A DNA stretch of 42,415 bases, taken from a virus. The stretch spans positions 1 through 42,415 of the IMG/VR virus record IMGVR_UViG_3300025146_000007, one strand, 5' to 3'. A model generated the notes under the pieces. It was not told where the DNA came from, made no database searches, and worked only from the letters and a program-made list of their open reading frames with translations. Below, piece by piece: positions 7,243 to 42,415 of this stretch (position 1 is its first letter; each line of letters opens with the position of its first letter). The position numbers and the translations under genes were made by a program.

Positions 7243-7443
7243 ATGGTAGCGGTGGCGAAGCCTGAGCCTATGATTGCCGCGGTGGTGGAAGTGCGCTGCT
7301 GGTCGAGCGCCTGTATGCCGAACGGCCAGCGGCGGCTCTTGCTTCGCGCCGCAATTGAGGGCAAGGCTACGCTATTCCTTCCCTGCCCGCGTTGCGGGTC
7401 TTACAACATCCGTGAAATAGAGGACGGAATTGTGCTAAACTAG
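7243..7443 (+). CDS. Com-like zinc-ribbon protein
   Basis: The 66-residue protein has the pattern EVRCWSSAC, about 20 residues, then LPCPRCGSYNIREI. Two cysteine pairs around a short beta-rich core are the hallmark of the Com family (Mu Com, a translational activator of the phage methylase gene) and related rubredoxin-like zinc ribbons. The ATG lies 2 nt after the previous stop. The 3' end overlaps the extended -10 promoter at 7432-7441. A regulatory role is possible but inferred only from family resemblance. Confidence 0.75.
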   Translation: MVAVAKPEPMIAAVVEVRCWSSACMPNGQRRLLLRAAIEGKATLFLPCPRCGSYNIREIEDGIVLN

Positions 7444-7457
7444 CGCCAATCGAATAG
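7432..7457 (+). promoter_or_regulatory. Extended -10 late promoter, copy 1
   Basis: GTGCTAAACT at 7432-7441 contains an extended -10 box (TGC then TAAACT). CGCCAA follows at 7444-7449 and AATAG at 7453-7457. The same three blocks occur with the same spacing at 37384-37409, ahead of the terminase operon; 20 of 26 positions agree. No good -35 box is present at 17 bp, as is common for extended -10 promoters. Expected transcription start is near 7448. It overlaps the end of the Com-like gene and is followed by a strong terminator at 7484. Confidence 0.65.
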
Positions 7458-7483
7458 ACCACCGAGGCCCCAGCACCGCGTCG

Positions 7484-7523
7484 AGGCCCTTAAGCGCGGA
7501 CCAGCTTGAGGGCCTTTTCTTTT
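7484..7523 (+). terminator. Intrinsic terminator in the leader of the capsid operon
   Basis: A 12-bp stem (AGGCCCTTAAGC at 7484-7495 with GCTTGAGGGCCT at 7504-7515, one G-U pair) closes an 8-nt loop and is followed by TTTTCTTT. This is a textbook rho-independent terminator on the + strand. It lies about 36 nt after the predicted start of the 7432 promoter and directly before the scaffold gene. The downstream structural genes therefore need either read-through, antitermination or another promoter. Confidence 0.85.
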
Positions 7524-8349
7524 GGTTACCGCAAATGCACCGGAGCTAACCCAGACCGAGGCCACGGAAACCCAGGCCGGAGAAGGTACAGACCCAGGTA
7601 TTGACGGCATCGACCGTGGGTTGATGTCGGATGTCCCTGAGTCCCAGGCCGAACCGGTACAGTCTCCTGACGCTGAAGGCACAGACAGCGACCCGGAAGC
7701 GGCTGCTGTAGAAGCGCGTATCAAGGCCGAACGTGAGGCCGCTGGGCGCGAAGTCCTGGAACGGACTCAGAAAGAGCAGCGCGAACGCGCCGCCGAAGCG
7801 GAGGAAACAGGGCGCCTGAAAGCCGCCCGAGATTTCTACATCCAGGCGGCGCAGGCAGCGCGACAGGTGACTCTCTCCGACGATTACACGCCGGACGAGA
7901 AAGCCCAGCTCATCAGCGGCTATTTCGACACCACGCACGGCGTATACCAGCGCATCTTCGCGGAAGGCGTAAAAGGCCAGATGGCGGTGGAGATTGCCGA
8001 AAAGACTTCTCCCGAGAAGGGTGAGGCATTTCTGCGCCGTCGATTTGGCAGCACCCGCGAGATGCTGGCCGCGGCCCTGGACGAGATGGAGCCTACGCGC
8101 CAGGAGCAGGCCCGCAAGGGCTTTGTCTCTGAAGCTGAGGCTGCCAAGCGCACCCAGGACGCCTTGCGTGAGGCCCGTAAGCGCTTTATTGAGAACCCGG
8201 ACAAGTACCTGTCCCAGGGCTCAAAGGGTTCACCTCAGAGCCGGCGTGACGGGAGCGGGAACTACAAGAGTGACGATGAGTTGCTGCTTGACCCAGCCAC
8301 GCCCATCGAAACAGTCAACGCAATTCTCGACCGCAGGCGCGGTCAGTAA
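7522..8349 (+). CDS. Capsid scaffolding protein
   Basis: The 275-residue product lies immediately before the major capsid gene. It is strongly charged, acidic at its N terminus (many Glu, Asp and Gln up to residue 70), then has a long helical Glu/Arg/Ala-rich coiled coil (about residues 65-105) and a basic C-terminal part (about 205-240). This composition and position are typical of phage scaffolding proteins. The start is uncertain. TTG at 7522 follows the terminator U-tract, and its only Shine-Dalgarno-like sequence (GAGGG at 7508-7512) lies in the terminator stem. ATG 7624 would shorten it by 34 residues. Confidence 0.8.
   Translation: MVTANAPELTQTEATETQAGEGTDPGIDGIDRGLMSDVPESQAEPVQSPDAEGTDSDPEAAAVEARIKAEREAAGREVLERTQKEQRERAAEAEETGRLKAARDFYIQAAQAARQVTLSDDYTPDEKAQLISGYFDTTHGVYQRIFAEGVKGQMAVEIAEKTSPEKGEAFLRRRFGSTREMLAAALDEMEPTRQEQARKGFVSEAEAAKRTQDALREARKRFIENPDKYLSQGSKGSPQSRRDGSGNYKSDDELLLDPATPIETVNAILDRRRGQ
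8329..8344 (+). promoter_or_regulatory. Hairpin before the major capsid gene
   Basis: GACCGC, a four-base loop AGGC, and GCGGTC form a perfect 6-bp stem that spans the end of the scaffold gene. It lies 16 nt before the capsid ATG and just upstream of the GGAG ribosome binding site at 8351-8354. It is the first of three similarly placed hairpins (see 9269 and 10142). A role in mRNA processing, stability or translation of highly expressed genes is inferred. Confidence 0.5.
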
Positions 8350-8360
8350 CGGAGTAAGAC

Positions 8361-9260
8361 ATGGCGACAGGTGAAACCACCAGTGGCTCCCTGAGCAATG
8401 CCCTGCCCACCATCTACGCGGACGCTCGCCGGATTCGTGAGCAGAAGAGCGGCACTTGGGAGCGCACTACCACAGTCAAGCGCCAGCCGGAAGGCACTGG
8501 CGATGAGTTCAACTGGTACACGCTGAACCAGATCGACGCCGAGAACATCACAGAGACCCAGACAAACAGCAACTTCCAGCAGTTCTCCGGCTCGGTCCAG
8601 TCCACGGAACCGCAGATGACCCAGGTGATCATCAAGGTCACGGACAAGACCTATCGCAAGGTCTCCAAGAACGTGACCTCCCTGATGGGGCCTGCGGCCG
8701 GTAACGCGATGGAGCGCAAGAAGAACAAGGACTACCTGGCCACGTTCACCACTTTCGCGACCACCAACTCTCCTGGGACGGGTCAGCCGATGGCCTCCGG
8801 CTACATCTCGGCGGCCGTGGCCAACGCCCGGTCGAACACCACGGAACCGGCCATGACCCCGGTCTCCACGGTGTTGCACGGCTTCCAAATCTTTGACCTG
8901 CAAGTGGAACAGGTCACGGCCATCGGCACCTACGCCATCCCGGCCGGTATGACCGAGCAGGTCTTCCGCAACGGCTTCCAGGGGCAGGTGTCAGGCTCGA
9001 TGGTGTTCGAGGACGGCAACATCGCCGTGGACTCGACCCCGGACGCCAACGGCGCCACCCACGCCCGTGAAGGCGTGTACTCAGTCATGGGCATGTCCCT
9101 CAAGCGAGAGACCGACCGCGACATCTACTTCGGTGGTGGCGCGGACGTGATCTCCCTGACCGACGAGTTCGCCTTCGCGGAGAACAAGTCCGGTACGTCC
9201 GGGACTACGCAGGTCTTCTGCTACCGGCATCTCAGCGATGCCACGTCGCCGACCAGCTAG
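8361..9260 (+). CDS. Major capsid protein
   Basis: The 299-residue protein follows the scaffold gene by 11 nt, with GGAG at 8351. Its N-terminal part (SLSNALPTIYADARRIREQ) and the absence of any enzyme motif fit phage major capsid proteins. The sequence is a balanced alpha/beta mix with a Glu/Asn/Gln-rich region at about residues 50-70 (ENITETQTNSNFQQFSG), and is probably an HK97-like fold. Composition is moderate, without long low-complexity runs. Position, size and strong ribosome binding site support the call; the fold is inferred. It presumably assembles on the scaffold encoded upstream into the procapsid filled by the terminase. Confidence 0.82.
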   Translation: MATGETTSGSLSNALPTIYADARRIREQKSGTWERTTTVKRQPEGTGDEFNWYTLNQIDAENITETQTNSNFQQFSGSVQSTEPQMTQVIIKVTDKTYRKVSKNVTSLMGPAAGNAMERKKNKDYLATFTTFATTNSPGTGQPMASGYISAAVANARSNTTEPAMTPVSTVLHGFQIFDLQVEQVTAIGTYAIPAGMTEQVFRNGFQGQVSGSMVFEDGNIAVDSTPDANGATHAREGVYSVMGMSLKRETDRDIYFGGGADVISLTDEFAFAENKSGTSGTTQVFCYRHLSDATSPTS

Positions 9261-12343: not shown

Positions 12344-12358
12344 CGATGCGAATCTTAA
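12152..12358 (+). CDS. Hypothetical protein, strand uncertain (68 aa)
   Basis: This frame starts at ATG 12152 with an ATGA overlap and GGGAGAAGG just upstream, which fits the operon. The protein (opening MRIRAEGIEEGQVIGAAVLG) has no recognisable domain. An equally long frame on the other strand (12137-12343) has the amino-acid make-up of a folded protein and its own extended -10 sequence. One of the two may be a shadow; I cannot decide from this sequence alone. Confidence 0.4.
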   Translation: MRIRAEGIEEGQVIGAAVLGSAQLTGNSKIQPPPFRAIETAHHREPSLAVAAPKNTVVRLGGFHRCES

Positions 12359-12438
12359 CAGACAAGTGCCAGCGCTGTGGGGAAGTAATCGACCAGGCGA
12401 AGTGGGATCGGCTGAAGGCAGAGGTGGCTAGTGGTTGA
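12346..12438 (+). CDS. Tiny CxxC peptide (30 aa)
   Basis: ATG 12346 is preceded by GGAGGG at 12332-12337. The 30-residue product MRILTDKCQRCG followed by an amphipathic helix (DQAKWDRLKAEV) carries a single CxxC pair. It could bind zinc as a dimer or be a remnant of a longer zinc-ribbon protein. It overlaps the start of the next gene by 8 nt. Confidence 0.5.
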   Translation: MRILTDKCQRCGEVIDQAKWDRLKAEVASG

Positions 12439-23725: not shown

Positions 23726-23753
23726 TTGACAGTAACCAAATTCATAGTAATAT
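23726..23753 (+). promoter_or_regulatory. Early promoter with consensus -35 (leaderless transcript)
   Basis: A perfect -35 TTGACA (23726-23731), a 16-bp spacer and TAATAT (23748-23753) form a strong sigma-70 promoter on the + strand. The ATG of the next gene begins 7 nt after the -10 box, at the expected +1, so the message would have no leader. It drives the long early operon. Just upstream, AAGGG and CCCTT form a short inverted repeat across 23711-23727 that touches the -35 box and could be an operator. Confidence 0.8.
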
Positions 23754-23759
23754 GGCCCC

Positions 23760-23924
23760 ATGGTGACAGTCAATCTCTTCACCTGCCAGCGCTGCGGAGC
23801 ATCCTGGGAGCCGCGAAAGCCGAACCCAGTCCAGTGTCCCCGCTGCAAATCGCTGGCATGGCGAACACCTAAACCTGAACATAGCGAGAATAATGGTAAA
23901 GTAACGCCCGAGCCTCAGACTTAA
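23760..23924 (+). CDS. Zinc-ribbon protein at the head of the early operon (54 aa)
   Basis: The product MVTVNLFTCQRCGASWEPRK, then NPVQCPRCKSLAWRTP, has two CxxC knuckles, a classic zinc ribbon like those of small transcription-linked or RNA-binding proteins. No Shine-Dalgarno sequence precedes the ATG, and the -10 box is only 6 nt away, so it is probably translated from a leaderless message. Being first transcribed, it could act early in infection. Its tail is hydrophilic and likely disordered. Confidence 0.75.
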   Translation: MVTVNLFTCQRCGASWEPRKPNPVQCPRCKSLAWRTPKPEHSENNGKVTPEPQT

Positions 23925-28703: not shown

Positions 28704-28771
28704 ACAAGGCAAGACTGATCCCTGAGACGTTGGTTGGCGTCAGCGCCGGTCGCACGGAGTGTCCGGCGTGA
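28700..28771 (+). CDS. Possible leader peptide for the methyltransferase (23 aa)
   Basis: ATG 28700 overlaps the nuclease stop, and the stop TGA 28769-28771 overlaps the methyltransferase GTG 28768 as GTGA. The product MNKARLIPETLVGVSAGRTE is short and unlike any family I know. It may simply couple translation of the two enzymes. GAAGG lies upstream. Confidence 0.35.
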   Translation: MNKARLIPETLVGVSAGRTECPA

Positions 28772-30795
28772 GCTGGGAGATGAGGCAGGGCGACGTGCTC
28801 GAGCGGCTGGCCGAGCTGCCGAGCGAGAGCGTGCATTGCGTGGTGACTTCGCCGCCCTACTTCGGCCAGCGCAACTACGGCGTCGAAGGGCAGATCGGCG
28901 TAGAGCGCTCGATAGACGAGTACGTCGCCAAGATGGTGGCCGTGTTTGCCGAGGTCAGGCGGGTGCTCAGGCGTGACGGCACATTCTGGGTGAACCTTGG
29001 GGACGGGTATCACAGCCGCAATCGTGGCGGCTATCACCGTGATGGCGAGCGAGGCTACAAGGGTGGGCCGATTCAGATGGGCAATATCGGCTCTCTCCGC
29101 CGTGCGGGCGCGGATGGGCCCGCAAGCAACCGGCTGGCCCAGACGGGCCTGAAGGCGAAGGACCTCATGATGATGCCGGCGCGTGTGGCCCTGGCGCTGC
29201 AAGCTGATGGCTGGTGGATACGCAGCGAGATTACCTGGTGCAAGCCCTCTCCGATGCCGGAGAGTGTGCAAGGCTCGCGATGGGAGAGGCATTGGATTAC
29301 AATTAAAGAGTATGAAAAGCTGTCCCGATTGCCAAGCTTTATTCGAGCCGACGAAGGCTCACGACCCGCGCTGTCCAACCTGTCGGAATCGCAAGGCGAA
29401 GGAATATCGACAAACGGCAGCCTACCAAATAGCGCGCCAGAAATATCAGGCCAGCCTCAAGGGGCAGATCACTACCAAAGCACGGGAACAGCGCCCGGAT
29501 ATAAAGGAAAAGAGGCGGTTGGCGAGTCGATCCCCATCCGGCCGGCGCAACAAAGCCAAATACACAGCGACTCCGAAGGCACGGGCGGCGAGGGCGCGGT
29601 GGCTGCTCCAGTGGCGGAACAGTCCCAGCGCGAAGGCGTCCGCCGCCGCAGCGCATCAGCGCCGCAAGACGAATCCGCAATGGCGCTTACGCAAGCACGA
29701 GATAGATCGTCGCTATCGTCAGACACCCAAGGGCAGAGCGGTTCACGCGGCCATGTCCGAACGTCGCAGGGCGCGGAAGGCGCAGAGTCCTGGGTGTCTG
29801 ACGACGCAGGAATGGCGGGAGATCCTACGTCTGAGCAAGGGCCGCTGTTTCTATTGCAAACAGCCAGCGAAACTGACGATGGATCACGTAATACCACTGA
29901 GCAAGGACGGACCGCACACGATGAGCAACGTCGTGGCGGCCTGCCAGCCCTGCAACTCGCGGAAGAACGACCGAATACTCCTTCTCTTGTAGAGTGTCCC
30001 GGCTGCGCTAAATGCGCTGTTAACGATGGCTTCATTCTCCGTATCTCCGCCGGCCGCCCGACGAGCGCCACCGAGAAGATATACCTGCTCACGCGGTCCA
30101 GCCGCTACTTCTACGACCTCGACGCTGAGCGGGTGGCGTTTGCCGCGCCCGAGCGAGATCAAGCGGCGGCGCGCAGGGCGCGGGCCATTGAATCCCATAA
30201 GTCCATGCCAACCGCCGAGCGCAACGGGATTCGTCCCGCAAAACAGGAGGGCCATAGGCGCCGTCACGCAGGCTTTAACGAGCGGTGGGACGAAGCCGAA
30301 GCGAACGGCAGCGCCCCCACCGGCCGAAACCTCTGGAACTACTGGATCATCCCGCCTGAGCCCTTCCGTGACGCCCACTTCGCAACTTTTCCTAGCGAGC
30401 TGCCGCGCCGGTGCATCAGCCTGGGGACGTCCGCTAAGGGCGTCTGTGCGGCCTGTGGCGCGCCCTGGGTGCGGGTGGTGGAACGCACCGGCCACATTAA
30501 CGGCCGCGAACCTGCACACGTCCCCCTGAATAGCCCAACCAAGACAGATAGCACCGGCTGGCAACCAACCACTCGCGCTACGGATAGCTGGCGCCCGTCC
30601 TGCAAGCATGAGGCCGAGATAGTCCCGGCAACCGTGCTGGACCCGTTCGCGGGCTCAGGGACGACCTTGCTTGCGGCCATCCGCATGGAGCGCAGCGCCA
30701 TCGGTATCGAGCTGAACCCGGCCTACGTCGAGATGGCGCGGAAGCGCATCATCGCCGCCGCGCCGCTGCTGAACGGCTGCATGGAGGTGCTGTGA
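28768..30795 (+). CDS. Site-specific DNA methyltransferase (N4-C/N6-A, beta class), with nested HNH gene
   Basis: The catalytic motif TSPPYF is at about residue 25 and the SAM-binding loop DPFAGSGTTLLAAIRMERSA is at about residue 623. This catalytic-first order defines the beta class of amino-methyltransferases. FWVNLGDGYHSR, EITWCKPSPMPESVQGSRWE and RPTSATEKIYLLTRSSRYFY are standard surrounding blocks. Between residues about 181 and 408 the frame stays open but is Ser/Gln/Gly-rich and unstructured, because an HNH endonuclease gene lies there in another frame. A short native Cys-pair loop (ECPGCAKC) follows. GTG 28768 is chosen for its GGAG at 28756; GTG 28759 is an alternative. It probably protects phage DNA from host restriction. 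Confidence 0.85.
   Translation: MSWEMRQGDVLERLAELPSESVHCVVTSPPYFGQRNYGVEGQIGVERSIDEYVAKMVAVFAEVRRVLRRDGTFWVNLGDGYHSRNRGGYHRDGERGYKGGPIQMGNIGSLRRAGADGPASNRLAQTGLKAKDLMMMPARVALALQADGWWIRSEITWCKPSPMPESVQGSRWERHWITIKEYEKLSRLPSFIRADEGSRPALSNLSESQGEGISTNGSLPNSAPEISGQPQGADHYQSTGTAPGYKGKEAVGESIPIRPAQQSQIHSDSEGTGGEGAVAAPVAEQSQREGVRRRSASAPQDESAMALTQARDRSSLSSDTQGQSGSRGHVRTSQGAEGAESWVSDDAGMAGDPTSEQGPLFLLQTASETDDGSRNTTEQGRTAHDEQRRGGLPALQLAEERPNTPSLVECPGCAKCAVNDGFILRISAGRPTSATEKIYLLTRSSRYFYDLDAERVAFAAPERDQAAARRARAIESHKSMPTAERNGIRPAKQEGHRRRHAGFNERWDEAEANGSAPTGRNLWNYWIIPPEPFRDAHFATFPSELPRRCISLGTSAKGVCAACGAPWVRVVERTGHINGREPAHVPLNSPTKTDSTGWQPTTRATDSWRPSCKHEAEIVPATVLDPFAGSGTTLLAAIRMERSAIGIELNPAYVEMARKRIIAAAPLLNGCMEVL
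29312..29992 (+). CDS. HNH homing endonuclease nested in the methyltransferase gene
   Basis: In the frame one base behind (-1 relative to) that of the methyltransferase, ATG 29312 opens a 226-residue protein. It starts MKSCPDCQALFEPTKAHDPR then CPTC, a four-Cys zinc site, continues with Lys/Arg-rich DNA-binding repeats (KARAARARWLLQWRNSPSAK), and ends GRCFYCKQPAKLTMDHVIPL, SKDGPHTMSNVVAACQPCNS, RKNDR. The last part is a full HNH core with its two zinc knuckles and catalytic His. AAAGAG lies 5 nt before the ATG. It would nick DNA and spread its own gene. Confidence 0.85.
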   Translation: MKSCPDCQALFEPTKAHDPRCPTCRNRKAKEYRQTAAYQIARQKYQASLKGQITTKAREQRPDIKEKRRLASRSPSGRRNKAKYTATPKARAARARWLLQWRNSPSAKASAAAAHQRRKTNPQWRLRKHEIDRRYRQTPKGRAVHAAMSERRRARKAQSPGCLTTQEWREILRLSKGRCFYCKQPAKLTMDHVIPLSKDGPHTMSNVVAACQPCNSRKNDRILLLL

Positions 30796-31931
30796 GTGTG
30801 GCTGTACCTCCCCTCTACGGTGCTGACGTGAACAAGACCCCAATCGGCTGGACCGACTTCTCGGCGAATCCTCTCCGTGCCCGCAACCGTGAGACCGGCA
30901 AGGTAGGCCACTTCTGCGAGAAGGTGTCGCCCGGCTGTGCTCACTGCTATGCGTCCGAGTGGAACGAGCACCGCTACGGGACAGGGGTAGCCTTCCTGCC
31001 CGGGAACCGGGAGCTGGTAGAGCCTTACCTGGATGAAAAGGTGCTGGAGAAGATTCTTCTCTATCGAGGCAGCCCCGCAAAGTTATTCCTGTGCGACATG
31101 ACGGACCTGTTTGCCGAGTGGGTGAAAGACGAATGGCTTGACCGCATCTTCGCCACGATGGCCTTGCAGCCGCGGCTCACGTTTCAGGTGCTCACCAAGA
31201 GGCCGGAGCGGATGCGGGAGTACTTTGCGGCGGGGCAATACCGTGACGTGAAGGTGACTGACGCCGCAAAAGGGATGGCCCGGGCACCAATAGATTTTCA
31301 CTTTGCGAAGTTGGGGCGATTAGGTGGCGAAGCGCGGGCAAAGAGTGAATGGCTGCCGTGGCCGCTCGATAACGTCTGGCTCGGCGTGTCCGTCGAGAAC
31401 CAGCACTGGGCCGACGAGCGCATACCGATCCTGTTGGCCACGCCGGCAGCCGTCCGTTTCCTCTCCTGCGAGCCGCTGTTGGGGCCGCTAGACCTGACGC
31501 GGATTAAGTTGCCTAAGCCGCCGCCCGATGCGTGGCTGAAACCCCTCGGTGAGTTCCAAGAGGAGATCGATGCGTTAGCCCGCGAACACATGGACTCAAT
31601 GGGCTTCGTGCGCCGCCTCAAACATGGCATCGATTGGGTGATTGCTGGCGGCGAGTCCGCTGGTCCTGCGGAGCGGGCGCTGGTCGAGCGCTGCATATGT
31701 GGGTGTCACGGTCATTTTGGCCACTATTCCTGTCCTTGTGGGAGCGAGTCCGAGGACGCTTCTCCCGCGGCGTGGATACCCAAGCCCGAAGCCCTGGCCT
31801 GGGTGCGCTCTCTGCGCGACCAGTGCGTCGCAGCCGGGGTGCCCTTTTTCTGGAAGCAATGGGCCGGTCCTCGGCCGACCTCCGGTGGGCGGCTCCTGGA
31901 CGGCCGTACTTGGGATGAGGCGCCGGCATGA
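30792..31931 (+). CDS. DUF5131 (phage Gp37/Gp68) family protein
   Basis: The 379-residue protein carries TPIGWTDFSANPLRARNRET, then FCEKVSPGCAHCYASEWNEH. The three cysteines C-x6-C-x2-C followed by YA are the signature of this family and recall radical-SAM iron-sulphur sites. Later blocks are LFLCDMTDLFAEWV, FQVLTKRPERM, WLGVSVENQ, FLSCEPLLGPLDL, VIAGGESAGPAER and a final helix with FFWKQWAG. The family is widespread in phages and unassigned; a nucleic-acid modification role is possible. GTG 30792 (GTGA overlap) is used; GTG 30828 gives the more usual opening VNKTPIGW. Confidence 0.85.
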   Translation: MSVAVPPLYGADVNKTPIGWTDFSANPLRARNRETGKVGHFCEKVSPGCAHCYASEWNEHRYGTGVAFLPGNRELVEPYLDEKVLEKILLYRGSPAKLFLCDMTDLFAEWVKDEWLDRIFATMALQPRLTFQVLTKRPERMREYFAAGQYRDVKVTDAAKGMARAPIDFHFAKLGRLGGEARAKSEWLPWPLDNVWLGVSVENQHWADERIPILLATPAAVRFLSCEPLLGPLDLTRIKLPKPPPDAWLKPLGEFQEEIDALAREHMDSMGFVRRLKHGIDWVIAGGESAGPAERALVERCICGCHGHFGHYSCPCGSESEDASPAAWIPKPEALAWVRSLRDQCVAAGVPFFWKQWAGPRPTSGGRLLDGRTWDEAPA

Positions 31932-35941: not shown

Positions 35942-36117
35942 TCATCTTTCCGTCTCCTTCCGGGCATCCCTCAATTCGTCTCGGACGAGGTCGTTGATCA
36001 TGCGTGTGGAGGCGGTATTGAGCCGCAACCCTGTCTGGGTTCGCTCACGAGGACGGTCACGAGGTAGCCGGCCACATCGTCACGAAAGGCAACTGGGGCT
36101 GCCTGGTGCGGGCTCAT
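35942..36117 (-). pseudogene. Small minus-strand gene, apparently frameshifted
   Basis: The frame starting at 36117 (ATGA overlap with the gene before it) gives MSPHQAAPVAFRDDVAGYLV, then TVLVSEPRQG, but soon stops at 35999. A -1 shift near 36030 would continue into LRLNTASTRMINDLVRDELR, then DARKETER, ending at 35942. Each half looks protein-like and together they read smoothly. This could be a broken gene, a sequencing error, or a programmed shift. No canonical slippery heptamer is evident. The remaining 51 bases to the CsrA stop hold nothing I can name. Confidence 0.45.
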
Positions 36118-36701
36118 GCGGCGAACTCCAATGCCTGACGTGCCAAGGAGGGTAGGTCAACGAAGGCCCTGGCGGCCCCGGCGGCGGCCCAGGCGGCCTC
36201 GGCGGCGGCCCTGGCGGCGGACGTGGCAGCGGAGCGATCTTTGCCGCTTAGCCAATCTTCGGCCCATCGGTTCCAGGACTCAGCTTGATAGACCGCTCGC
36301 CCGCAATAGATGGCGAACGCCACCCGTTGCTCTGTCGTGATGACTGGTACGGGCAACTCGCGTTCGGTGGTCAGAGTCTTGACCCCACATTTCAGCGGCC
36401 CGTCGCGCTCTATTGGCCCGCCATCGGGAGAATCGCACTCCCAGAGCCGCAATGTAGCCGCGACGACGTCGCCATGAATCGGGTTGAGGAACAGCGCCAC
36501 AAACGGGTCTTCATAGGCATGAATCCAGCCGTCTGAACACAAGTTTGTGCCTTTGCCGGTAGCCTTGTGGGTGACGTTCTCGCCCCACTGTGTGCCGCCG
36601 TAAGTCTGGCCGTTTTGGTCCGTGAGCTTGTAGAGCTTCATGCGTCCTCCCAGGCCTGCCGGTCCAGCTCTTGCTGCCAGCGAGTCGGTTAATTGGCTCA
36701 T
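36114..36701 (-). CDS. Conserved phage protein with Ala-rich C terminus (195 aa)
   Basis: From MKLYKLTDQNGQTYGGTQWG through NVTHKATGKGTNLCSDGWIH, the gene matches a well-known phage family of unknown function. Later it has KCGVKTLTTERELPVPVITT, then EQRVAFAIYC and WNRWAEDWLSGKDRS, before an Ala-rich stretch and VDLPSLARQALEF. ATG 36701 has AAAGGAG at optimal spacing and overlaps the previous stop. ATG 36641, 20 codons in, has GGGAGG and matches the usual family start. Either may be used. Confidence 0.8.
   Translation of the reverse strand: MSQLTDSLAARAGPAGLGGRMKLYKLTDQNGQTYGGTQWGENVTHKATGKGTNLCSDGWIHAYEDPFVALFLNPIHGDVVAATLRLWECDSPDGGPIERDGPLKCGVKTLTTERELPVPVITTEQRVAFAIYCGRAVYQAESWNRWAEDWLSGKDRSAATSAARAAAEAAWAAAGAARAFVDLPSLARQALEFAA
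36183..36227 (-). repeat. Inverted partner of the Ala repeat at 33999-34052
   Basis: Read on the minus strand, these 45 bases are the same as 33999-34013 joined to 34023-34052. They encode ATSAARAAAEAAWAA here and ATSAAEAARAAAEAAWAA in the + strand gene. The shared nucleotides between otherwise unrelated genes indicate exchange of the repeat segment. Confidence 0.8.
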
Positions 36702-36871
36702 TTCGTCTCCTTTCGGGCGTCTGGCGCCCTCTCTCGCCAGCGCTTCGAGCTGTGGTACCGGGTCCGGCAGGCTGTATCGCAGAACTTGCGCCCGGCCCGG
36801 CCCTTCGTGGCCTTGCCGTCGTGCAGGCACTTGATCCAGACCGGCTCCTTCGGTACGTAGGTGCGCGGCAT
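36698..36871 (-). CDS. Treble-clef zinc-finger protein (57 aa)
   Basis: The ATG overlaps the stop of the gene before it as ATGA. The product reads PRTYVPKEPVWIKCLHDGKA, then GRKFCDTACRTRYHSSKRWR. The C...C and FC...C.. spacing with RYHxxKR is typical of small phage and bacterial treble-clef zinc fingers that bind nucleic acids. The basic tail supports that. Confidence 0.7.
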   Translation of the reverse strand: MPRTYVPKEPVWIKCLHDGKATKGRAGRKFCDTACRTRYHSSKRWRERAPDARKETK

Positions 36872-37245
36872 CAAGCCCAGTCCGAAAGGAGTGCGTGCAG
36901 CTCCTGAGCGTTGTGCCACCCGCAGGTGTCGGGGTCGAGGTCGCGTAGTTCCTGTGGCGAAAACACGAGATAGCCGCCGTTGCGGATATCGTCGTATGTG
37001 GGCTCTAGCCAGATGGGCGTGCCCCACCTCGCCTCTTCTGCGATCAACGCCTCGTCCTCCAGGTCATTGCCCTCCCACCCCGAGAAGGATGGATCGGCTT
37101 GGGCGTCTTTGAGGTCGCGTACCAAATCACGGGCGTCCAGATAATAATGCTGGTAGCGTTGCTGCCTCCCGCTCTGGAGCTGGAGGGTCATGCCGCCCCC
37201 GTTGTCCGCAATTATCAGGATTTGGAGTGCCTGTTTCTGTTTCAT
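36871..37245 (-). CDS. Conserved phage hypothetical protein (124 aa)
   Basis: It is the first gene behind the 37.3-kb minus-strand promoter. The product has QALQILIIADNGGGMTLQLQ, then YQHYYLDARDLVRDLKDAQA, a SGWEGN motif, and an acidic helical C terminus (PQELRDLDPDTCGW). The opening QILIIADNGGG(M/I)TLQLQ with YQH(Y)Y and SGWEGN recurs in many phages and is of unknown function. The ATG has AAGGACA just upstream, within a leader of short repeats. Confidence 0.75.
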   Translation of the reverse strand: MKQKQALQILIIADNGGGMTLQLQSGRQQRYQHYYLDARDLVRDLKDAQADPSFSGWEGNDLEDEALIAEEARWGTPIWLEPTYDDIRNGGYLVFSPQELRDLDPDTCGWHNAQELHALLSDWA

Positions 37246-37312: not shown

Positions 37313-37341
37313 AGTGTACCCCGCCTATTACACTTTGTCAA
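37313..37341 (-). promoter_or_regulatory. Near-consensus sigma-70 promoter for the minus-strand operon
   Basis: On the minus strand, TTGACA (37341-37336), a 17-bp spacer and TACACT (37318-37313) make a near-perfect promoter. The leader down to the ATG at 37245 contains three CACAGAG units, three ACAAGG-like units and a GCCGC/GCGGC hairpin. The 249-base gap (37246-37494) thus holds this promoter, the divergent + strand promoter at 37384 and the terminator at 37444. Confidence 0.85.
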
Positions 37342-37383: not shown

Positions 37384-37409
37384 GTGCTATACTGCCGCCA
37401 ACTAAATAG
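37384..37409 (+). promoter_or_regulatory. Extended -10 late promoter, copy 2
   Basis: GTGCTATACT (37384-37393) contains an extended -10 box (TGC then TATACT), one base off the consensus. CGCCAA (37396-37401) and AATAG (37405-37409) follow at the same distances as in copy 1 at 7432. The expected start is near 37400. As in copy 1, the leader is short and ends in a strong terminator. Confidence 0.7.
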
Positions 37410-37443: not shown

Positions 37444-37475
37444 GGGCTGGACCCCACAAGGGTCTGGCCCTTTTT
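37444..37475 (+). terminator. Intrinsic terminator in the leader of the terminase operon
   Basis: GGGCTGGACCC (37444-37454) pairs with GGGTCTGGCCC (37460-37470), 11 bp with two G-U pairs and a 5-nt loop, followed by TTTTT. A transcript from the 37384 promoter would stop after about 75 nt, the same length as at the 7.4-kb copy. Terminase, portal and further genes lie directly downstream. Confidence 0.9.
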
Positions 37476-37494
37476 CGTATGCGAGGGAATAGCG

Positions 37495-37782
37495 ATGGAT
37501 CAAGTAGTGGATGTGCCCGCTGTCTGGTCAGGTGCCAACGCTAGCCTGACATGTGTACCGGGCTGCGACTGCGTGGGCAACCCCTACTGGCTCCCTGACT
37601 ACTGCCCTACGGCCGGCAAGGGCGAGGTGTGTGAGGCCGTCTGGCCGATATCAGAGGAGGGCAGGAGATGGCAGCCGATCTTTGAGGTGGCCGAGTGGCA
37701 GTGCCGTTGTGGCCGGCTAGACCACTGGGAGAGCTACCTTACCTCTGCGGGCTCAGCGGTGACGGTGATCAAGTTGCCATGA
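37495..37782 (+). CDS. Cys-rich hypothetical protein at the start of the late block (95 aa)
   Basis: GAGGGAA lies upstream of ATG 37495. The product contains LTCVPGCDCVGNPYWLPDYC, and later EWQCRCGRLDHWES; eight Cys in all. It could bind zinc. It is the first gene behind the promoter-terminator unit, a position where phage antitermination or small packaging proteins occur, but nothing more specific can be read. Confidence 0.7.
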   Translation: MDQVVDVPAVWSGANASLTCVPGCDCVGNPYWLPDYCPTAGKGEVCEAVWPISEEGRRWQPIFEVAEWQCRCGRLDHWESYLTSAGSAVTVIKLP

Positions 37783-37791
37783 GGGCTGAGC

Positions 37792-38115
37792 GTGGCTGCG
37801 TGGCTGAGTTTTGCAGGCTCGAATATGGCTGGTAAAAAAGGTCGCTCGGGCCGAAAGCCTGCCAGCGCCCGAGCCGCCTTCATTGCCTTCGCCGAGGGAT
37901 ACGAGGCCGACAAGCGGCGGGCAATATTGTGGCTGGAGTTGCAGCATCTTGCTGCTAAGGCGGGCGATGGCCAGGCTGGCCGGTTTTTGCTTGAGCAGTA
38001 CATCGGTAAGGCCAATCAACACCTTGAGGTGGCGGAAGAGAAGTCTGACCAGTGGTACAAGCTACAGCGCGAGATAGCTGGACTCAAGAAGGATGCAGAC
38101 TCTAACGCCGGCTAG
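37792..38115 (+). CDS. terS: Terminase small subunit
   Basis: The product contains MAGKKGRSGRKPASARAAFI, a basic opening common to terminase small subunits, then helical, charged sequence (ADKRRAILWLELQHLAAKAG). GTG 37792 has GAGGG 6 nt upstream; ATG 37825 matches the usual family start but has no binding site. It directly precedes and overlaps the large subunit. It would recognise the packaging site in phage DNA. Position is the strongest evidence. Confidence 0.7.
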   Translation: MAAWLSFAGSNMAGKKGRSGRKPASARAAFIAFAEGYEADKRRAILWLELQHLAAKAGDGQAGRFLLEQYIGKANQHLEVAEEKSDQWYKLQREIAGLKKDADSNAG

Positions 38116-39499
38116 CCTGCGTGAGTTCGCCGGCCGCAAGGCACTGGAGCGCGTAGGCGTCGATGTCTCGCCAGAGTTCGGGGCAGCTCTGTTCCCGCGG
38201 CCGAGGGAGAAGGTCGTCACAGGTGGTTGGCAGGCCGGCAAGTCTGTTGAGGGTGCGGCCGAGATATACATCGATCTGCCGCTCATCGACCCTGACCGTG
38301 ACTACCGCTACTGGGTGATCGTCCCTACCTATCGGGCGCCGCACAAGGAGATCGACTACCTGCTCCAGTGGTGCCAGGCGATGGGCATCGTTAGCTCTCA
38401 TCACTTCCCGGATGGATCGAGCTGCCGAATCGCGCTCTTTGGCGGGCGCGTCGTTGTGGAGACCAAGACTGCCGAAGATCCCGAAGGCATCGCGGGCGAG
38501 CCTTGTGACGGCGTGCTCGTGGTTGAGGCGGGCCAGATGCCCGAAACCATCCGCACGCAGGCACAAGGGCGCATCGTTACCCGGCGTGGCTGGATCACGT
38601 ACACCGGGACATTGGAGGACGACGAGGCCAAGCCTCGGTACGCTTGGTACGGGACCTTGGCTGAGCGCTGGCGTGACCACATCACCCACGAGCAAGGAGC
38701 GTACGAGCTGCCGACATGGGCGAATCGCACCGTCTTTCCTGGCGGTCGCCAAGACCCGGAGATTACGCGGCAGGAGCTTATCTTCGATGAGCACAGCTTC
38801 AGCCGCCGCTACGGCGGCAGGGCGAAGGGTGTGCGCTGGGCTGTCTACACGCAGTTACAGGCCCCGAACGCTCGCGCCAAATACCTCAAGCCGATCCCGG
38901 CCGGTCATGACAATTGGGTCTGGGGCCTCGGGGTTGGTGGCGAGGACTACGGCTCCGAGCATGGCCATCCCTCGGCCCTATCAGCGCTGAGCATGAATGA
39001 CCTGGGTGAACTCTGGGTGAGAGAGTGTCACAAGCTCCAGACCTCAGACACGAAGCGGCTGGAAGAGCAGAGGTTGGCTCTCAGTCACCTCTACCGTATC
39101 CCGCGTGTCCGCTGGGGATTCGACCCGATGCTACGTGCTCACGCCGATTACGTCGGCGCCGAGGCCGTCGACGCAGCGGCAGGAGCACGTATGAGGCGGG
39201 CTGGTGGAGTGATAGCTAGGCTCAACGGCCTGCCGGGGATGCTGGGACCGGGGTTGTTTTTCGACATCAACGGCCATGGAGTCACGGACGGCTATGACGA
39301 AATGACGCGAGTCCACCTGGCCAAGAAGCTGATGCCCAACAGAGGCGAAGTCTTTGAGTACGTCAGGATCGCCGACGACGTGACGGCCACAATTGAGAAC
39401 GCCGTCGAGGTGGCGGACGGGAGACAGCCGTTGCCTATAGGCAACACCGTCAAGCTGGTGGGCGCCAGCAAGGCTATCACTCCGGCGAGGGTTAGCTAA
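38093..39499 (+). CDS. terL: Terminase large subunit
   Basis: The 468-residue protein has a Walker A motif in VVTGGWQAGKSVEGAAEIYI, a Walker B-like GVLVVEAGQMP at about residue 140, and the coupling motif ITYTGTLED at about residue 163. The C-terminal half is the RNase H-like nuclease: an Asp in LGVGGEDYG, another in VRWGFDPML and a third in DGYDEMTR. It drives DNA into the procapsid and cuts it at the headful or site. ATG 38093 overlaps the small subunit by 23 nt, and the stop shares its last base with the portal start. Confidence 0.85.
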   Translation: MQTLTPASLREFAGRKALERVGVDVSPEFGAALFPRPREKVVTGGWQAGKSVEGAAEIYIDLPLIDPDRDYRYWVIVPTYRAPHKEIDYLLQWCQAMGIVSSHHFPDGSSCRIALFGGRVVVETKTAEDPEGIAGEPCDGVLVVEAGQMPETIRTQAQGRIVTRRGWITYTGTLEDDEAKPRYAWYGTLAERWRDHITHEQGAYELPTWANRTVFPGGRQDPEITRQELIFDEHSFSRRYGGRAKGVRWAVYTQLQAPNARAKYLKPIPAGHDNWVWGLGVGGEDYGSEHGHPSALSALSMNDLGELWVRECHKLQTSDTKRLEEQRLALSHLYRIPRVRWGFDPMLRAHADYVGAEAVDAAAGARMRRAGGVIARLNGLPGMLGPGLFFDINGHGVTDGYDEMTRVHLAKKLMPNRGEVFEYVRIADDVTATIENAVEVADGRQPLPIGNTVKLVGASKAITPARVS

Positions 39500-41409
39500 T
39501 GGACCGCACGACTGTAGACCACTGGCGCACAGAGCTTGAGTCTCTGTTCAGCCAGTACATGGACGCACGCCGGTCCTGGCGCCAGCTCTTGCACCGGGAG
39601 CTACAGGCGAACGTAGACCCCAAGCTGCGCGACATCGCCGCCTACTACGAGACGCCGGACATCGAGGAGGAGCTGTTCAAGCTCACGGGGATTCTGCAAA
39701 TGAACCCCACCGAGTTTGACTACGTGCTGCTCGGTGACGGGACACGGCTGGAGGAGCGGGCGCAGGACACGGCTCTATGGGTTGCCCGCGGACATCTGGA
39801 CATCAACAAGGGCCGCAAGGTTGACCGCCAGATCGGTGAGGGGCAGGGGCTGGACGGCTGCAAGGTCCAGCGCTTGATGTACCGCCCGCCTACGGAGCTG
39901 GACGGACGCGAGGAGTACGGCGAGACGGACGGGATGCTCTGGTACACCGACGACGTGGACACGCTCTCTGTGCGCTGGCTGCCAAGGGGCGAGGGCTTTG
40001 AATACATCATCTGGGACGCCGAGGTGCCGATCGCATCGGCTAACGAGGACTACCGGGTATCCGGCAAGCAACTCGGCGGCGGCTACAATTCCAAGCTCTA
40101 CTATCGCCCGCTCCTGGACGACTCCAACAAGCTGGTCTGGGTGGGCGATGACGTATCGCCGGACGATAGCCAGTACGGCACCAGCAAGCTGGTCAGGCGG
40201 GTGATCTGTGAGTACCTGGACAAGACTAACAAGTGTCCGGTCTGCCCTGAGGGGCACCCTCTCTGGGCGGGCGTCGAGTACCTGCTGAACGCGGCCGGTG
40301 AGTTCAAGACAGACGGCATCGAGGTCAACCGCTACACGCTGCCGTACCGACACGCCCCGACCTTGCGCGTGATTGCCGGCCGGCGTTCGTCCGACCGCAA
40401 CCCGCACTTCCGCTACCGGCCGGCTCTCTACCCTCTGTTTGTCGAGGCCACGATCATCAACTGGCTCAACACCGTGCTGATGACTCTGGCCAATCGCGAC
40501 TCCTCTCAGGAGCAGGTGTACGCCACGCTGAAGTCCCTGCCCGAGGCGGCCGTGGGCCGGATGCCCGAAGTCTACTGGGACACCATGAGCGTGCCCCTGC
40601 CCAGGCCGGGCGCGAAGGAAGCGCCGATAGTGCCGGGCGAGCTCTTGGCCTGGCCGACCAAGCTGGTTGATGCCTTCCTGACACTGCGAGAGGACGCGCT
40701 GAGGCGCTTCGAGGCGGCCAAGATCAACCGCTTCATCATGGGCGAAGCGTTCCAAGAGGCAAGGGAAGGCACGGGCTCTGCCAACCTCTCGCAACTGCAA
40801 CAGGCCCGACTGCCCTTCAACCCTCTGTTGATGGAGACGGACCAGTTCTGGTTGGAGCTGTATGAGGACATCCTGCACGCCATCCGCTACTGGGACCACG
40901 AGGAGCCCAAGGATACTCAGCGCCAGTACCCGGTGATCGCCGGCGGTGAGGAACCATTGGCTCGGCACCGGGCTGAGCCGGGCACGACCGTCAACCTCAC
41001 GGCCGCCATGCTCGGCGGCTTCCGCCTCAAGCTGAAGACCGAGAACGAGACCTTGCAAGAGCAGATACAGCGCGAGCAGCACGCCTGGTGGAAGTTCGAG
41101 CGCGGGTTTATCGACGACAGTCAGCTTGTCAAGGAATGGGGCTATGCCGACGCCGAGGCCCAACTGAGGCGCATCAACGACTACCGGCTCTACGTGCGTT
41201 CCAAGCATCTGAAGGAAGCGGCGCAACTGTACGTCATCCAGACCCTATTTTCTTCGCAGGCCGACCTCGACCCCGCGCTTTTCGCGCCCGCGCCACCTTC
41301 AGATGGGGCTGAGGCGCCGCCTCAAGGCGGTGGGGTAGGCCAGCCTAGCGTGAGACTGCCGGCGCTCAACGGACCTGCCGGCGGCACCAGTCCAGTGGGG
41401 GGGTTATGA
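39499..41409 (+). CDS. Portal protein
   Basis: The 636-residue protein follows the terminase in the usual order. It opens with helical sequence (WRTELESLFSQYMDARRSWR), has a long charged middle, a short Cys pair (NKCPVCPEGHPLW) within an inserted loop, and helical segments (LFVEATIINWLNTVLMTLAN, then DAFLTLREDALRRFEAAKIN) of the kind that build the portal stem and crown. It ends in a Pro/Gly-rich tail. Twelve copies should form the DNA channel at one capsid vertex. The call rests on position, size and helix pattern. Confidence 0.8.
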   Translation: MDRTTVDHWRTELESLFSQYMDARRSWRQLLHRELQANVDPKLRDIAAYYETPDIEEELFKLTGILQMNPTEFDYVLLGDGTRLEERAQDTALWVARGHLDINKGRKVDRQIGEGQGLDGCKVQRLMYRPPTELDGREEYGETDGMLWYTDDVDTLSVRWLPRGEGFEYIIWDAEVPIASANEDYRVSGKQLGGGYNSKLYYRPLLDDSNKLVWVGDDVSPDDSQYGTSKLVRRVICEYLDKTNKCPVCPEGHPLWAGVEYLLNAAGEFKTDGIEVNRYTLPYRHAPTLRVIAGRRSSDRNPHFRYRPALYPLFVEATIINWLNTVLMTLANRDSSQEQVYATLKSLPEAAVGRMPEVYWDTMSVPLPRPGAKEAPIVPGELLAWPTKLVDAFLTLREDALRRFEAAKINRFIMGEAFQEAREGTGSANLSQLQQARLPFNPLLMETDQFWLELYEDILHAIRYWDHEEPKDTQRQYPVIAGGEEPLARHRAEPGTTVNLTAAMLGGFRLKLKTENETLQEQIQREQHAWWKFERGFIDDSQLVKEWGYADAEAQLRRINDYRLYVRSKHLKEAAQLYVIQTLFSSQADLDPALFAPAPPSDGAEAPPQGGGVGQPSVRLPALNGPAGGTSPVGGL

Positions 41410-42144: not shown

Positions 42145-42415
42145 ACCAGCGCCTGCCGCTTGAGCAGCTAGAGCTTGTCCCCAAAGTCTCTGAGGATGAG
42201 GAGAACTCTGCCTGTCTGCGCGTGGCCGAACGCCTGGCCGACGAGCTCTACGACGAGATCAAGCGGCTGTGGCCGGATTACACGATCAGCCCCGGCATCA
42301 AGCTCAAGCCCTTCGAGTGGCTCAACCGGATGCTGGTGTTTATCGTCCAGGGCTGGCCCGAGGACGAGATGATGCGAATCCAGGTGGTCGAACTCCTGTT
42401 GAGGGACGACTACAT
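42141..42415 (+). CDS. Hypothetical protein, N-terminal part of a gene that crosses the ends
   Basis: ATG 42141 overlaps the previous stop as ATGA. The N-terminal part reads LEQLELVPKVSEDEENSACL, RVAERLADELYDEIKRLWPD. The frame leaves the window at 42415 and continues at position 100; see the feature at 1-262 for the rest. The full product has 145 residues. Confidence 0.85.
   Translation, partial: MNQRLPLEQLELVPKVSEDEENSACLRVAERLADELYDEIKRLWPDYTISPGIKLKPFEWLNRMLVFIVQGWPEDEMMRIQVVELLLRDDY
42317..42415. repeat. Terminal direct repeat, right copy
   Basis: This is the exact duplicate of positions 1-99 and shows that the two ends join in the middle of one gene. Confidence 0.95.

Follow-up and report, generated by a model that had tools for sequence, protein, structure and literature searches.

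A promoter-proximal terminator ahead of the capsid operon as a probable switch for capsid production in uncultured tailed phages

The stretch of viral DNA analysed here (the window, 42,415 nucleotides) carries scaffold and major capsid protein genes headed by a predicted promoter, a short leader and an intrinsic terminator at 7.4 kb, and a second cassette of this kind precedes the terminase genes at 37.4 kb (table 1). The two cassettes thus head two late blocks, the second of which starts with terminase and continues across the junction of the window ends as far as 7.2 kb. An identical 99-bp direct repeat occupies both ends (1-99 = 42317-42415), and so the window is probably a complete, circularly permuted genome. 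A DNA search of the phage database returned no match, and none of 4227 Rfam families was found in the window. Gemmatimonadetes was considered as host and set aside as too weak, the single genome match being a contig from a MAG so labelled (L017, contig coverage 1.8). The name "portal" was likewise dropped for the ORF at 39499-41409, which has no similarity to the equally placed 637-aa ORF of the relative L005; the name would therefore be merely positional. Elsewhere in the window, a DNA methylase (PF01555) is followed by a DUF5131 protein (28759-31931).

Table 1. Features of the two cassettes and of the genes around them (window coordinates).
Feature	Position	Strand	Remark
66-aa Zn-ribbon ORF (CWSSAC...CPRC)	7243-7443	+	directly 5' of the cassette; weakly Com-like
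Predicted promoter: weak -35-like GTGAAA (7412-7417), 18 nt, extended -10 TGTGC.TAAACT (7431-7441)	7412-7441	+	
Shared block CGCCAATCGAATAG	7444-7457	+	spans predicted start
Predicted intrinsic terminator: 13-bp stem GAGGCCCTTAAGC..GCTTGAGGGCCTT, tract TTTTCTTTT	7483-7523	+	
Scaffold gene; start codon TTG, 9 nt 3' of GAGGG	7522-8349	+	adjoins major capsid protein; N-terminus matches L014 scaffold (E 0.003)
Major capsid protein	8361-9260	+	28% to Pelagibacter phage HTVC111P major capsid protein
Predicted divergent promoter TTGACA-17-TACACT	37313-37341	-	serves leftward genes 36871-37245 and 36114-36830
Predicted extended -10 promoter GTGC.TATACT	37384-37393	+	predicted start A37400
Shared block CGCCAACTAAATAG	37396-37409	+	
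Predicted intrinsic terminator: 11-bp stem GGGCTGGACCC..GGGTCTGGCCC + TTTTT	37444-37475	+	
Terminase block: 95-aa ORF, 107-aa ORF, TerL	37495-39499	+	
TerL (terminase large subunit)	38093-39499	+	phrog_2, E 8e-11

A sequence-only reading of this DNA had pointed to a decamer, CGCCAA and AATAG at equal spacing at 7432 and 37384, and to a strong terminator about 75 nt past the predicted start with a late block behind it at both sites. Both observations are borne out. A pattern search for GTGCTA(A/T)ACT gives exactly two matches in 42.4 kb, both on the + strand and each followed at equal spacing by CGCCAA and AATAG, and the 26-nt blocks are identical at 20 of 26 positions. In the 16 nt 3' of the decamer 11 positions agree, a level reached by random 16-mers of the window with P = 0.0007. 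The 30 nt 5' of the decamers are unrelated (8/30 identity) and hold no conserved upstream element; thus, there is no -35 common to both sites. The decamers themselves read as extended -10 elements (TRTGn), TGTGC.TAAACT at 7.4 kb and CGTGC.TATACT at 37.4 kb, and a promoter scan of the whole + strand ranks position 7436 first and 37388 third. At 7.4 kb transcription is predicted to start at A7448, and the -10 at 7432 doubles as the final codons (GTG CTA AAC TAG) of the Zn-ribbon ORF. The two most stable + strand terminators that a hairpin scan finds in the window are those of the cassettes (7483-7516, -23.9 kcal/mol; 37444-37470, -21.6 kcal/mol), each ending a leader of about 75 nt. The leader at 7.4 kb folds with a z of -3.6. 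This cassette recurs at 100% identity in two more contigs; the one at 37.4 kb lies outside them.

Capsid searches yielded relatives on viral contigs (L002-L005, L011-L016, L035-L104 and, later, L106-L160) and on a single contig from a MAG (L017). In 24 of 49 non-redundant capsid relatives, against 1.2 expected, the locus has its best sigma70-type promoter within 206 nt 5' of the scaffold start, and these promoters mostly overlap the stop codon of the gene before or lie close to it. A terminator of -13 kcal/mol or lower lies within 167 nt 5' of the scaffold gene in 16 of the 49, compared with 7 of 600 random windows. A strong promoter is followed by such a terminator at 13 of 29 pre-scaffold sites versus 2 of 123 elsewhere (p = 2.6e-9). 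On the capsid tree (44 proteins, with L039 and L040 not placed) a pre-scaffold hairpin or terminator is present in all 10 members of the window clade; in L039 and L040, whose capsids are about 50% identical, the promoter stands without a hairpin. Stems are also kept by compensatory change, 6 of 15 pairs being altered on both sides between L087 and L088, and two pairs between L035 and L036. Between relatives the leaders share no conserved sequence beyond boxA or the hairpin. The architecture is therefore conserved and the sequence is not, and since position is retained despite sequence divergence, and the linkage is specific to the pre-scaffold site, a promoter with a close terminator before late genes is not a product of chance. 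By hand count, a small upstream ORF accompanies about 9 of 16 loci with a terminator and 3 of 33 without, a difference that is suggestive and confounded by kinship. Neither the window nor eight loci contain tRNA genes.

The conservation has its bounds. When relatives were searched for the paired cassette, it was the pre-scaffold arrangement that proved to be kept, by position, and the twin was not recovered: a terminase-side cassette with a terminator is seen in the window and was not found in G001 and G005-G008, so that it is no general feature, and G001 has GTGCTACACT 5' of its terminase genes without a terminator. Nor do the CGCCAA and AATAG blocks form a conserved unit, the 26-nt pattern matching this phage alone in viral_contigs. 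The terminator is missing from roughly half or more of the wider family, and conditional termination is thus dispensable for capsid expression in general. Most loci that do have the terminator place it against or across the scaffold ribosome-binding site, which leaves no room for a promoter 3' of it; read-through of some kind is therefore required.

In the window the overlap goes further. The scaffold Shine-Dalgarno GAGGG (7508-7512) is part of the terminator's 3' arm at 7.4 kb, and hence the hairpin hides the translation start. The locus L014 has like geometry (GAGG, 8 nt, GTG), with scaffold N-termini that align with those of the window. This raises the possibility of a translational operator, in which the hairpin would mainly hide the Shine-Dalgarno, the U-tract would be secondary, and translation would be set by a phage RNA-binding protein, either the scaffold acting on its own gene or the Com-like Zn-ribbon protein whose ORF lies upstream. 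The Shine-Dalgarno is likewise in the 3' arm in L005, L011, L012, L014 and L038, and leader plus hairpin of L011 and L012 reach a z of about -6. Mu Com-mom offers a parallel: Com of phage Mu is an RNA-binding protein that unfolds a structure blocking translation, and selection for Com binding gave the motif GAGNNCC(N)2-3GAGNNCC, whose CC(N)2-3GAG part lies in a C-G-closed loop (PMC6483171). As in that system, a small Zn-ribbon gene sits directly 5' of a hairpin hiding the start region in the window. In L088 a genuine Com gene (PF10122, E 3e-5, above cut-off) directly precedes the promoter, and the terminator hairpin holds GAGAACCTTGAGTTCC, an exact GAGNNCC(N)2GAGNNCC with the loop C-UU-GA closed by C-G; six exact matches to the Com motif occur in 1.1 Mb, counting both strands of the capsid loci. 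Against a translational operator, long U-tracts directly follow many of the hairpins, and the Shine-Dalgarno lies outside the hairpin in L004, L035, L036, L043, L055, L062, L087, L088 and L092, as well as at 37.4 kb in the window (37483-37487). Moreover, the Zn-ribbon ORF of the window matches phrog_6417 "translational regulator" weakly (E 0.078), otherwise has generic Zn-ribbon matches and gives no PF10122/Com match, while CC(N)3GAG(N)2CC occurs at 7459 as sequence, without a supporting stem or hairpin. The arrangement would also differ from Com-mom in its target, the scaffold-capsid operon, and in a hairpin that doubles as terminator, and the window protein is at most a putative Com. We judge a translational operator rather unlikely. 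The Zn-ribbon protein is best regarded as a second candidate agent, a lead and not a result, for relieving the terminator.

Further observations concern Com and small Zn-ribbon genes. L106 resembles L088: a genuine Com gene lies upstream, and the bipartite Com motif occurs as an exact match near the tip of the terminator hairpin. In L118 the loop of the terminator hairpin, some 46 nt 5' of the scaffold start, is of Com type (CCTAGAG, 5-bp stem), and no Com gene was found nearby. A Com search of the phage database gave no match. At 23726-23873 of the window, a TTGACA-16-TAATAT promoter stands 6 nt 5' of the ATG of an apparently leaderless Zn-ribbon gene of 37-38 codons.

The leaders of sister lineages provide additional clues on how termination might be relieved. 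A boxA lies between promoter and terminator in nine of them (L087, L088, L092, L109, L113, L118, L139, L141 and L149). Scoring used a matrix built from four established rrn boxA sequences; the gamma-proteobacterial consensus is GYTCTTTAANA (PMC5725501). With this matrix the best + strand boxA of the locus falls in the leader in L087, L088 and L092. Applied unchanged to 18 new loci, it places the locus-best + strand boxA in the leader in five (L113, L118, L139, L141 and L149; expected 0.46, p = 7e-5), with the caution that by the time of scoring these leaders had already been inspected by eye, the matrix itself being unaltered. In L109 the boxA sits in a longer leader, beyond the scored stretch, and in L146, which is without a terminator, the leader boxA ranks second in its locus. 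The order of elements is well illustrated by L141, where GTGCTATAAT and the boxA ACTTTAACAACTTAATAA are followed by the terminator. The sequence SCGCCAAYHRAATAG may be the form of rrn boxA in the host of the window phage. We also noted a good boxA match in L070 (CTTAACAACTGAATAG, 12350-12370), between two genes about 3 kb 3' of the scaffold gene, and in L109, up to 420 nt 5' of the scaffold start, a tRNA-Leu-like stretch between boxA and terminator in which ARAGORN calls no tRNA.

The window itself departs from this pattern. A boxA core of the CTTTRAMA type is absent from its leader, the best leader match ranking 196th in the matrix scan. Its shared blocks correspond to the 3' half of the boxA element only (CAAYHRAATAR; CAAYHRAATAG), with GCGC or CCGC in place of the boxA CTTTA, and the predicted start falls within the boxA-like element, at the point where the conserved 3' half begins. 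On present evidence the window is thus not a case of boxA, and the role would have to fall to a phage factor or to an RNA element that has diverged.

The boxA elements in the sister leaders imply regulation, which bears on a further explanation, namely that the terminator is a fixed attenuator or punctuation mark, leaky and unregulated, that either sets the proportion between upstream and capsid transcripts or blocks read-through. The same-strand virion genes upstream at 7.4 kb would suit such a role, and no regulator has been identified. Yet the terminator sits after, and not before, the strongest promoter of the locus, and at 37.4 kb the terminator closes no + strand operon directly upstream, the adjacent genes there pointing leftward behind a promoter of their own. 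Together with the boxA elements, these features render a fixed attenuator improbable. We consider very improbable a small-RNA gene, in which the promoter-terminator pair would mainly produce an abundant RNA of about 75 nt, with capsid mRNA as a by-product or made from elsewhere. The compactness of a strong promoter plus terminator fits, and lambda pR' likewise makes a short RNA; the leader sequence, conversely, is unconserved among relatives apart from boxA or hairpin, and matches no Rfam family.

In this context, we favour the view that both cassettes are conditional terminator leaders, working by attenuation or antitermination, and hold it to be fairly likely. At the capsid locus the promoter-terminator pair would probably act as an on/off switch for capsid production. 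A sigma70-type promoter would drive a short leader RNA, and most transcripts would stop after about 75 nt at the intrinsic terminator; the scaffold-capsid operon, and here also the terminase operon, would be held back until the right moment, or the right factor, blocks the terminator. In the sister lineages the polymerase-modifying signal would most likely be boxA, read by host NusB, S10 and NusA. In the window phage the terminator would be relieved by some diverged RNA element or by a factor of the phage, the upstream Zn-ribbon protein being one candidate. Given that one hairpin at 7.4 kb also hides the scaffold Shine-Dalgarno, its opening would switch on transcription and translation together.

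Among known systems, lambda pR'-tR' with Q is alike in that its late genes are preceded by a strong promoter, a short leader and an intrinsic terminator, and in the requirement for read-through. The sequence-only reading had proposed this parallel, and the need for read-through and the conserved layout speak for it; a purely Q-like reading, however, leaves the hidden scaffold ribosome-binding site unexplained. The window further differs in having two cassettes, before scaffold-capsid and before terminase, a 7.4 kb hairpin that overlaps the ribosome-binding site, and no identified Q-binding element or pause motif. PHROGs and Pfam scans of the larger ORFs recovered no Q-family antiterminator, although the diversity among Q families is large and many proteins of the window are without any match. 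With no Q, N or put homologue recognised in the window, it had been suggested that the antiterminator would be new, a claim now weakened by the presence, at that very spot in sister phages, of boxA, a known Nus-factor signal. Nus-dependent antitermination of the rrn and lambda nut type resembles the sister leaders in having boxA at the 5' end of a promoter-terminator interval, but the window is without the boxA core, no boxB or N is seen, and the phage elements precede an intrinsic terminator and capsid genes. That rrn boxA mainly counters Rho-dependent termination (PMC5725501) speaks against the favoured reading. Transcription attenuators such as ribosomal protein leaders share the premature terminator in a 5' leader; here no Rfam family matches and no leader peptide is seen in the 7.4 kb leader. 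The literature searched contained no similar description, which is not proof of novelty.

Control of capsid synthesis through a promoter-proximal terminator would give a widespread group of uncultured phages, in which no transcription regulator is recognised, a simple means of timing their late genes. Owing to boxA, the mechanism can be tested in E. coli or in vitro, with no need for host culture, and the Com-like genes suggest a second role for a protein type so far known for mom. We put forward, as a speculation that we think unlikely, that in a large group of uncultured tailed phages capsid production is governed by regulated read-through of a terminator immediately 3' of the capsid promoter, relying on host Nus factors and boxA in some lineages and on a Com-like Zn-ribbon protein acting on the hairpin in others, with control of transcription and translation joined in one RNA element.

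Other leader types occur among the relatives. HK022 put, an RNA double hairpin, has no Rfam match in the window, and highly structured leaders precede the Shine-Dalgarno hairpin in L005 (8996-9103), L011 (5262-5360) and L012 (8995-9105), with z of -3.4, -6.0 and -6.2, respectively; all three have a long stem GACGG...CCGUC whose inner sequence varies yet still pairs. A clade with promoters and without a terminator (L048, L051, L054, L057-L059, L065, L066, L076, L086, L089 and L093) conserves GTGACGACCC about 35-53 nt 5' of the scaffold start. Finally, the leaders of L047, L055 and L083 have in common GTGAGTGCGC immediately 5' of the terminator, representing another leader motif, without boxA.
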